Shown here piece after piece: positions 3,468-17,275 of a stretch of DNA of 64,000 nucleotides (its first letter is position 1; every line of letters begins with the position of its first letter). The position numbers were made by a program, and so were the translations under genes. The notes under the pieces were generated by a model. The model was not told the DNA's origin, made no database searches, and saw only the letters and a program-made list of their open reading frames with translations. The stretch spans positions 1,996,001-2,060,000 of the forward strand of contig CP063375.1 of assembly GCA_022813675.1 (NCBI GenBank), read 5' to 3'. Source of the stretch: Deferribacteraceae bacterium V6Fe1. Lineage in GTDB: Bacteria; Chrysiogenota; Deferribacteres; Deferribacterales; Deferrivibrionaceae.

Positions 3468-3496
3468 TTGACACATCACTTTTAACCCTTTAATAT
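3468..3496 (+). promoter_or_regulatory. consensus sigma-70 promoter of the pyr operon
   Basis: TTGACA at 3468-3473, a 17-base spacer and TAATAT at 3491-3496. Normal spacing puts +1 at G3503, so the transcript would begin 5'-GGGUAAAAAAUG. A dyad (ACCCT 3485-3489, AGGGT 3502-3506) flanks the -10 box. Confidence 0.8.
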
Positions 3497-3511
3497 CTAA
3501 GAGGGTAAAAA

Positions 3512-3556
3512 ATGAGAAGAAAATATAAAAAAATAAATTATGTGCCTTCCAACTAA
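3512..3556 (+). CDS. 14-codon leader ORF ahead of pyrR
   Basis: The frame ATG 3512 to TAA 3556 encodes MRRKYKKINYVPSN. An AGGG lies six bases upstream of the ATG but at the extreme 5' end of the predicted transcript. The frame runs through the 5' arm of the downstream terminator hairpin, and its stop codon is the first triplet of the hairpin loop. This is the geometry of a leader peptide whose translating ribosome would block the terminator, as in enterobacterial pyrL-pyrBI. The peptide has no known relative that I can name. It could also be a chance ORF. Confidence 0.4.
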   Translation: MRRKYKKINYVPSN

Positions 3557-3577
3557 TTGTTGGGAGGCTTTTTTTTT
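3544..3577 (+). terminator. attenuator-type intrinsic terminator before pyrR
   Basis: GCCTTCCAAC (3544-3553), loop TAATT, GTTGGGAGGC (3559-3568) with one G-T pair, followed by nine T (3569-3577). It lies between the pyr promoter and the pyrR ribosome binding site, so it can only act as an attenuator of pyrRBC. Confidence 0.85.
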
Positions 3578-3593
3578 GTCAAAAGGAGGATAT

Positions 3594-4127
3594 ATGAGCG
3601 GACGAGAAATTTTGAATGCACACGAAATCGACAGCATTATAACGAGGTTGGCATTTCAAGTTATAGAAAAATGTCAGGATATCGGCAAAATGAAGTTAAT
3701 CGGAATAAAGAGACGAGGAGCTATACTAGCCGATAGGATAGCCCATAAGATTAATGAATTCAAAAAAACTTCCGTTGATGTAGGTTATTTGGATATTACT
3801 CTATATAGAGATGACTTATCTGAGATATCCGATTTTCCTAAAATACTCGGCACAGAAATAAACTTTGATATAAAAGGTAAAAGTATATTTCTTGTTGATG
3901 ATGTAATTTTTACCGGAAGAACAGTTAGAGCTGCAATGGATGCAATAACTGACCTTGGCCGTCCCAAAAAAATTGTTTTTGTAGCTCTTATAGACAGAGG
4001 CCACAGAGAACTTCCCATCCAGCCTGACTTTACTGGCAAATACGTCCCGACCAGCCTTGATGAAAAAATTAATGTAATGCTTAAAGAAATAGATGCAATC
4101 GATTCTGTAACAATAGAAAAAATGTAA
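3594..4127 (+). CDS. pyrR: bifunctional pyr regulator / uracil phosphoribosyltransferase
   Basis: A 177-residue PRTase-fold protein. The PRPP-binding loop is VDDVIFTGRTVRAAMD, and 'IGIKRRGAILADRIA' is the conserved N-terminal PRTase segment. The start is ATG 3594, preceded by AAAGGAGGATAT; a longer frame from 3540 would run through the terminator and is rejected. In Bacillus, PyrR binds a conserved RNA loop in pyr leaders when UMP is high and promotes termination; it also has weak UPRTase activity. The short leader here does not show the Bacillus-type PyrR binding loop, so the target RNA, if any, is unclear. It is first in the pyrR-pyrB-pyrC operon. Confidence 0.92.
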   Translation: MSGREILNAHEIDSIITRLAFQVIEKCQDIGKMKLIGIKRRGAILADRIAHKINEFKKTSVDVGYLDITLYRDDLSEISDFPKILGTEINFDIKGKSIFLVDDVIFTGRTVRAAMDAITDLGRPKKIVFVALIDRGHRELPIQPDFTGKYVPTSLDEKINVMLKEIDAIDSVTIEKM

Positions 4128-4147: not shown

Positions 4148-5068
4148 ATGTCATACACTAAAAAAGATTTGGTTGGAATGAAAGATCTGACTAAAGATGA
4201 AATCCTTTTTATCCTTGATCAAGCTGAAAAATTTAAGGAAATTAACAAAAGAGAAGTAAAAAAAGTGCCCACATTAAAAGGGAAGACAATTGTAAATCTT
4301 TTTTTTGAACCATCAACCAGAACAAGAACATCTTTTGAAATAGCAGGCAAAAGGCTTTCTGCCGACACTATAAATTTTTCCTCCTCCTCAAGTAGTACAA
4401 CAAAAGGCGAGACTTTGATTGATACAGTTAAAAACATTGAATCTATGAACTCAGACATATTTGTGGTAAGACATGCCTATTCCGGTTCGGTAAAATTTAT
4501 CGCGGAAAACACAAAAGCCGGTGTAGTTAATGCCGGTGACGGAACAAATGAGCACCCTACACAAGCCCTTTTGGATTTATTAACCATCAAAGAACACAAG
4601 AAAAAATTAGAAGGCTTGAATGTGGCAATTATAGGGGATATCACTCACAGCAGGGTTGCCAGATCTAATATATGGGCAATGAATAAACTTGGTATCAACG
4701 TCAAATTGTTTGGGCCCAAGACAATGCTTCCAAAAGAAACTGCGCCCTTTGGATGTTATATAGCATCAAATATGGAAGAAGCAGTTGAAGACTGTGATGT
4801 AATAATGATGCTTAGGATACAAAAAGAAAGGATGTCAACGGTATTACTCCCTTCGGACAGAGAATATGCCAAATTTTTTGGTTTGAACAAATCTAAACTA
4901 AAAAAAGCAAAAGGTGACTGCATTATCATGCATCCTGGGCCAATTAACAGAGGGGTTGAGCTTAGTAGTGAGCTTGCAGACTGTAAACAGTCAGTAATAC
5001 TTGACCAAGTTGAAAACGGCGTTGCAGTCAGAATGGCCGCACTATACATCGTAGCTAATAATATATAA
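4148..5068 (+). CDS. pyrB: aspartate carbamoyltransferase catalytic chain
   Basis: A 306-residue enzyme making N-carbamoyl-aspartate from carbamoyl phosphate and aspartate, the committed step of pyrimidine synthesis. The carbamoyl-phosphate loop FEPSTRTRTSFE is at residues 53-64, and HPTQALLD near 137 and 'MHPGPINRG' near 260 are typical. No pyrI regulatory chain is next to it, as expected for the PyrR-controlled type. It lies 20 bases after pyrR and 20 bases before pyrC, with a GGGGTG ribosome binding site. Regulation is presumably by the leader attenuator. Confidence 0.97.
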   Translation: MSYTKKDLVGMKDLTKDEILFILDQAEKFKEINKREVKKVPTLKGKTIVNLFFEPSTRTRTSFEIAGKRLSADTINFSSSSSSTTKGETLIDTVKNIESMNSDIFVVRHAYSGSVKFIAENTKAGVVNAGDGTNEHPTQALLDLLTIKEHKKKLEGLNVAIIGDITHSRVARSNIWAMNKLGINVKLFGPKTMLPKETAPFGCYIASNMEEAVEDCDVIMMLRIQKERMSTVLLPSDREYAKFFGLNKSKLKKAKGDCIIMHPGPINRGVELSSELADCKQSVILDQVENGVAVRMAALYIVANNI

Positions 5069-5088: not shown

Positions 5089-6354
5089 ATGAGTATACTA
5101 TTAAAAGGATTAAAAATTATAAATCATAACAACATAGAAGAAGGTAATTTATTAATCGAAAAAGATACTATCAAGGGGATAACAAAAGAAACGCCTCAAG
5201 CAAAAGAAACTGTTGACTTATCAGGACTTATTGCAGTACCAGGACTTATTGATATGCATGTTCACTTTAGGGACCCGGGGCTTGAATACAAAGAAGATAT
5301 AGTTTCAGGCAGTCAAGCCGCTGTTGCCGGAGGGGTTACCACATGTTTGCCTATGGCAAATACAAAACCTGTCAATGATAACTCAACCATAACAAAATAT
5401 ATGATCGACAAAGCAAAAGAGTGCGGATTAATTGACCTATGCCCTATCGGAGCAATCACCAAAGGGATGAAAGGTGAAGAATTAACGGAAATGGGCGATA
5501 TGTTGGAAGCCGGTGCAGTTGCATTTTCTGATGACGGATTACCTGTCATGAATAGTGAAGTTATGAGACGAGCACTTGAATATATAAAAACTTTTGGAAG
5601 CTTCATAATAAGCCATTCAGAAGATAAAAATCTTGCAGGCAAAGGTGTAATTCACGACGGCAAAGTAGCTACAATTACCGGACTAAAAGGGATACCTGCT
5701 GAGGCTGAAGAGATAATGATTATAAGAGATATTCTACTTGCTAAAGCTACAAAAAGTCGTATTCACATTGCACATGTCAGCACAAAAGGCTCTTTAAAAC
5801 TAATAAAGTGGGCTAAAGAAGAAGGGATTGAAGTTACCTGTGAGGCAGCACCTCACCATTTTTCCTTTGATGAAGAGTGTCTCCTTGATTACGACACTAA
5901 TTACAAAATGAATCCGCCGTTGAGAGAAAAAGAGGATTTAGAGGCTATTGTAGATGGTCTTAAAAGTGGAATTATAGATGCCATTGCTACTGACCATGCA
6001 CCACATCATATAGATGAAAAATTTGTGGAGTTTGATAACGCTGCCTTTGGTATTACAGGATTACAAACACTTATCCCTCTTACTTTAAAGTTGATTAAAA
6101 ACAACAAACTCACATGGCAAGATTTTGTAAGACTAACATCATACAACCCTGCAAAAATACTAAACTTTTCAGACAAAGGTGAATTAAAGGCAGGCAAAAA
6201 AGCTGACATTACAATTATCGACCCTGATTTTACTTATATTTTTGATAAAAATATAAACAAATCAAAATCAATTAATTCTCCGTTATTTGGAAAAGAATTA
6301 ACAGGCATAGCAAAGCTTACTATAAAGGATGGAAAAATAGTCCATAAAATGTAA
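5089..6354 (+). CDS. pyrC: dihydroorotase (class I, long type)
   Basis: A 421-residue zinc amidohydrolase closing carbamoyl-aspartate to dihydroorotate. The HVHFRDPG metal motif is at residues 57-64; further metal ligands lie in 'IISHSED', 'IHIAHVST' and 'ATDHAPHH'. Length (about 420) and the HVHFRDPG form place it in the long class I type rather than the short E. coli type. AGGAGG precedes the ATG. It is the last gene of the pyr operon and converges with cimA. Confidence 0.96.
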   Translation: MSILLKGLKIINHNNIEEGNLLIEKDTIKGITKETPQAKETVDLSGLIAVPGLIDMHVHFRDPGLEYKEDIVSGSQAAVAGGVTTCLPMANTKPVNDNSTITKYMIDKAKECGLIDLCPIGAITKGMKGEELTEMGDMLEAGAVAFSDDGLPVMNSEVMRRALEYIKTFGSFIISHSEDKNLAGKGVIHDGKVATITGLKGIPAEAEEIMIIRDILLAKATKSRIHIAHVSTKGSLKLIKWAKEEGIEVTCEAAPHHFSFDEECLLDYDTNYKMNPPLREKEDLEAIVDGLKSGIIDAIATDHAPHHIDEKFVEFDNAAFGITGLQTLIPLTLKLIKNNKLTWQDFVRLTSYNPAKILNFSDKGELKAGKKADITIIDPDFTYIFDKNINKSKSINSPLFGKELTGIAKLTIKDGKIVHKM

Positions 6355-16846: not shown

Positions 16847-16871
16847 AGCAGCCTAAATAGGCTGCTTTTTT
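16847..16871. terminator. bidirectional terminator between fccB and rnpB
   Basis: GCAGCC (16848-16853), loop TAAATA, GGCTGC (16860-16865), flanked by A runs on the left and T runs on the right, so it works on both strands. It ends exactly where the rnpB 3' end begins. Confidence 0.9.
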
Positions 16872-17268
<397 letters not shown>

Positions 17269-17275
17269 AACGATT

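Follow-up and report, generated by a model that had tools for sequence, protein, structure and literature searches.

The pyrRBC operon of Deferrivibrio metallireducens V6Fe1 (Deferribacterota) is preceded by a promoter, a very short leader ORF and an intrinsic terminator, whose relative positions are conserved within the phylum. This leader is probably a UTP-sensitive transcription attenuator coupled to translation of the ORF, a miniature of the type found upstream of pyrBI and pyrE in E. coli; from this arrangement we infer that the ORF is translated, that pausing depends on UTP, and in which direction regulation goes.

The leader and its proposed coupling to translation

The genome of V6Fe1, a thermophile with a growth optimum of ~60 °C (PMC11896075), is one contig of 2,358,333 bases, and the window analysed is a 64,000-nucleotide stretch of it. 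At curated thresholds, the sole Rfam match in the window is the bacterial class A RNase P RNA (16865–17271, minus strand). The pyr promoter (3468–3496, plus strand) comprises TTGACA (3468–3473), a 17-bp spacer and TAATAT (3491–3496), an arrangement that recurs before pyrR in 24 leaders of this phylum. It is followed by GGGT (3503–3506, plus strand), the predicted start region (+1 to +4); G3503 is at the usual +1 position, 7 bases beyond the -10 box, with A3502 as a possible alternative start. Among 59 TTGACA-N16-18-TANNAT sites genome-wide, a GGG 5–7 bases downstream is unique to the pyrR-leader promoter.

The intrinsic terminator, or attenuator (3544–3577, plus strand), begins 41 bases from 3503, and consists of a 10-bp stem (3544–3553 with 3559–3568), a 5-nt loop and a U9 tract (3569–3577), reading GCCUUCCAAC-UAAUU-GUUGGGAGGC over 3544–3568 and then U9. 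Folding of the leader RNA beats all 200 shuffles (z −3.7), with this one strong hairpin dominating and the A-rich leader body predicted to be unstructured outside it. Between start and terminator runs a predicted leader ORF of 14 codons (3512–3556, plus strand), encoding MRRKYKKINYVPSN, whose ATG lies at +10 (3512) and whose TAA (3554–3556) takes up bases 1–3 of the terminator loop. The first-pass annotation of this DNA had placed the promoter, the GGGT, the terminator and the 41-base spacing correctly, and its view of the region as an attenuator-type pyr leader is supported; the sensing step that it proposed, discussed below, is doubtful given the leader ORF and the broken GGGU of relatives.

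Downstream are pyrR, the first gene of the operon (3594–4127, plus strand; NCBIfam NF003549, 226 bits against a cut-off of 138), pyrB, encoding aspartate carbamoyltransferase (4148–5068, plus strand; NF002032, 421.8 bits against 263), and pyrC, encoding dihydroorotase (5089–6354, plus strand; TIGR00857, 434.1 bits against 279). The pyrR frame stays open upstream across the terminator as far as the ATG at 3540 (3540–3593), so gene callers may add an 18-residue N-terminal extension, MCLPTNCWEAFFLSKGGY, to the protein; the proper start is ATG 3594, preceded by AAAGGAGG.

In E. coli pyrE, attenuation relies on a short translated leader and a terminator. The pyrBI leader (pyrL) has the same likeness to the arrangement described here, in that a short leader ORF, translated in E. 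coli and predicted in V6Fe1, overlaps or abuts an intrinsic terminator upstream of pyrimidine genes. By analogy, RNA polymerase would begin near 3503, placing the leader AUG at +10. With UTP plentiful, polymerase would run ahead, and the hairpin at 3544–3568 would form before a ribosome arrives, stopping transcription before pyrR. With UTP short, polymerase would be slowed at U residues upstream of and within the terminator, while the first ribosome loads, reads the 14 codons and, once at or close to the loop's stop codon, covers the 5' arm of the hairpin; with this arm covered, no hairpin would form and pyrRBC would be transcribed.

In pyrBI, whose terminator sits inside a leader gene of 135 bp, a ribosome close behind polymerase suppresses termination (PMC4824070). 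A ribosome halting a few bp before a terminator almost abolishes termination, its protection extending ~10 nt past the A site; terminators in the first 100 bp normally escape, and pause sites provide the coupling at the pyrBI attenuator (PMC4824070). Judged from its sequence, the geometry of the V6Fe1 leader is suited to coupling of this published kind. It differs from pyrBI and pyrE in scale and setting: the Deferribacterota ORFs are mostly 7–18 codons long, the 5' end lies only ~10 nt before the AUG, pyrR is the first gene of the operon, and the window's genus shows no evident UTP pause tract. In the Thermus pyr operon (pyrR-pyrB-...-pyrC), too, pyrR is preceded by a terminator and a short leader peptide, and coupling of transcription to translation has reportedly been proposed there.

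Conservation of the leader across the Deferribacterota

When 51 genomes of the phylum were searched for PyrR, 48 gave a match at E ≤ 0.001, though some matches are no more than weak phosphoribosyltransferase hits, and upstream regions were compared at 44 pyrR loci. A contig scan with a single PyrR query found no extra pyrR loci, and an alignment-based PyrR scan yielded only distant ones, which serve as an out-group. The same promoter and terminator layout is present at 24 of the 44 loci, in families f1–f5 and one f7 genus; among these 44 it is missing in Mucispirillum-like genomes, f8, one f5 genus and the outermost lineages. In Mucispirillum-like and some other Deferribacterota (L028–L041; f7 and other genomes), pyrR lacks a terminator leader; the attenuator would have been lost or replaced there.

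An ATG lies at +1 to +21 in all 24 layout leaders, and in 22 of them the ORF stops no more than 16 bases before or 20 bases after the first stem base, against 4.2 expected from dinucleotide shuffles; as the 24 leaders share ancestry, they do not count as separate trials. The two exceptions are the congener L003 and L023, whose ORF reads on through the terminator and, in thus spanning it, resembles the pyrBI leader gene. Under a looser positional rule with a required Shine-Dalgarno, the pattern is found in 20/24 Deferribacterota leaders and in 2/34 terminator-bearing pyrR leaders from other phyla. This association of ORF and terminator recurs in at least five families whose peptides are unrelated (MRRKYKKINYVPSN, MLNIFIGFRFIK, MGKNNLSK and MKKINFLKIIFCKDF), as expected if what counts is where the ribosome stands rather than the peptide or its codons. 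The reading frame is itself variable: the congener L002 differs from the window species by a 1-nt indel, which gives it the leader frame MRRIKKK, with a stop codon 7 nt before the stem. A similar pyrR leader was seen in an unrelated MAG (L119:1370–1440), with AAGGTGGGAATC-ATG and the peptide MRRNLTWA, whose stop codon abuts the terminator; it is possibly an independent instance of the same layout.

In several relatives (f3, f5), U-tracts immediately precede the leader stop codon. Among L004, L015 and L020–L026, several leader peptides have a common K/R-I-N-(F/I)-L-like stretch, and the U-tracts right before the stop codon (CUUUUU, AUUUUUUG) are candidate UTP-sensitive pause sites. The leader of the window's genus is A-rich, with Us found mainly where the hairpin starts and in its first bases, and no clear U-tract before the terminator, which makes the pause step the weakest part of the proposed coupling.

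The same lack of a clear U-rich pause tract in the genus would suit an attenuator that reads the general rate of translation or transcription (growth rate, overall NTP supply), with no specific sensing of UTP. Alternatively, the leader might mainly serve reinitiation into pyrR, as could be read from the congener L003 (genome G013), whose leader ORF, MKKNCENKNMSLPTNCWEAFFLNSRR, crosses the terminator and has its end at the Shine-Dalgarno of pyrR, which suggests that translation of the two is coupled. In most relatives, however, the ORF stops well before pyrR, and a general-rate signal sits poorly with the finding of this layout at pyrR but at no other pyrimidine gene analysed, and with the pyrimidine signal expected for such an operon. 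In the V6Fe1 genome, no leader terminator was seen upstream of carA, pyrF or upp; pyrG, considered as a parallel case, was set aside, as it lies downstream of a kdsB-like gene and no attenuator was found there. Taken together, a leader with no specific response to UTP seems very unlikely.

The G-run at the predicted transcription start

A different UTP sensor had been proposed in the first-pass annotation, modelled on B. subtilis pyrG: at low UTP, polymerase starting at GGGU would stall at +4 and add extra G residues, and the poly-G tail would pair with CCUUCC in the terminator arm, preventing termination. This proposal overlooked the conserved short ORF, which it leaves unexplained, and the G-run behaves as the Shine-Dalgarno of that ORF. 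The leader resembles that of pyrG (RF02371) in its predicted GGG start, its A-rich spacer and a terminator with a CU-rich 5' arm ~40 nt downstream, although here the fourth base is U and not C, a short ORF is conserved, and relatives have lost GGG but kept the terminator.

GGGU occurs near +1 in 10/24 layout leaders: at the predicted start in L001–L003 and L008, and one base earlier in six f5 leaders (L015, L020, L021, L024–L026). The comparison of +1 to +4 thus divides, with GGGU kept in 3/3 congeners and missing from 14/24 leaders of the same layout. Among the latter are close relatives with a broken GGG (TGGT in L019, AGGT in L022) that keep both terminator and ORF, and f2, f4 and f5g6 are without GGGU near +1, a result close to that named beforehand as refuting reiteration. 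The number of G residues reportedly governs pyrG reiteration in B. subtilis, to judge by the title of Elsholz et al. 2007, as cited in PMC4403831; with TGGT or AGGT, reiteration should then be weaker.

Individual leaders are the more telling as to what the G-run does. In L005 and L006, where the distance from promoter to ATG is longer, the G-run (AGGGAG, AGGAG) remains with the ATG. The corresponding distance statistic is modest on its own: the G-run lies ~8 nt before the leader ATG with an sd of 0.97 nt, against 3.59 to the -10 box, when it is sought at Shine-Dalgarno-plausible distances, a restriction that favours the ATG. The unrestricted G-run gives 3.13 to the ATG and 3.71 to the -10 box, a weak contrast because of the outliers L007, where there is a tie, and L023, which lacks a Shine-Dalgarno. 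From these sequences, the G-run looks like the Shine-Dalgarno of the leader ORF, and GGGT at 3503–3506 is probably all or part of it, given its spacing to the ATG across families. A start at 3503 would leave only GGGU of the Shine-Dalgarno transcribed, and one at A3502 would leave AGGG; if +1 is 3503, the computed Shine-Dalgarno energies include untranscribed bases.

The pairing step is feasible at 37 °C, where an antiterminator with six Gs has −9.4 kcal/mol, against −10.4 for the Rfam PyrG_leader (B. subtilis) consensus. At 60 °C, by nearest-neighbour extrapolation, it falls to −2.7 kcal/mol (six Gs), or −3.5 at best (10–12 Gs), against −9.3 for the terminator. In addition, the base after GGGU covaries with the base before GCC (A/U in L001 and L002, U/A in L003 and L008), which amounts to one possible compensatory event. 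The pyrimidine-rich 5' arm is present as described but is not special, being found with or without GGGU and having the usual terminator polarity in the genome: five hairpins of the form GCCTYYY...RRRAGGCTTTT were found genome-wide, and none of the opposite polarity, GCCARRR...YYYTGGCTTTT. The arm was therefore rejected as a distinguishing feature. RF02371 aligns at full length starting exactly at 3503, but at 28 bits, far under its cut-off of 65; this weak match was rejected as uninformative, as RF00515 and trpB score equally on an A-rich leader plus hairpin. Overall, poly-G reiteration in the window's genus is possible but not favoured, and we regard it as improbable.

As the 5'-terminal GGGU would be both start site and all or part of the leader Shine-Dalgarno, a two-step hybrid may also be envisaged, in which G reiteration brought on by a shortage of UTP at +4 alters the strength of leader translation, and this decides termination. 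Reiteration at a start overlapping the Shine-Dalgarno has been proposed to tune translation of S. agalactiae thyA (PMC4448216). Such a hybrid is quite unlikely here; if true, UTP would be sensed at initiation, and the signal converted into a ribosome-controlled terminator. More generally, a G-run at a predicted +1 may be a Shine-Dalgarno, and calls for caution.

PyrR and the significance of a ribosome-coupled leader

As pyrR is the first gene after the leader throughout the phylum, and that of the window scores as a PyrR equivalog, PyrR with UMP might itself bind an unrecognised element, such as the leader ribosome-binding site region or the hairpin, and block leader translation or stabilise the terminator. 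Attenuation in Bacillus is controlled by PyrR (PMC4403831), and the Bacillus pyr operon (RF00515) resembles the present one in having a terminator upstream of pyrimidine genes and pyrR within the operon. The PyrR-binding hairpin and antiterminator of Bacillus were, however, not found here: searched at permissive thresholds, Rfam RF00515 reaches 28.7 bits in the window, where its cut-off is 54 and its middle helix does not pair, and 0/14 relatives carry the element, whereas 6/6 Firmicutes controls score. That the leader lacks a recognisable PyrR-binding element, as the first reading of the DNA had noted, is thus upheld. The leader body, A-rich and without structure save the terminator, is also not conserved in sequence between families. 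We therefore consider regulation by PyrR binding unlikely, and PyrR may here have an enzymatic role, or may bind some unrecognised element.

Attenuation coupled to translation of the leader ORF, the reading that we prefer, suggests that a phylum far from the Proteobacteria uses ribosome-coupled attenuation on its pyrimidine genes, and does so upstream of pyrR, whose protein carries out attenuation in Bacillus through RNA binding. With its stem 41 nt from the 5' end and a frame of 14 codons, the V6Fe1 leader would provide a compact test of what a minimal coupling leader requires.
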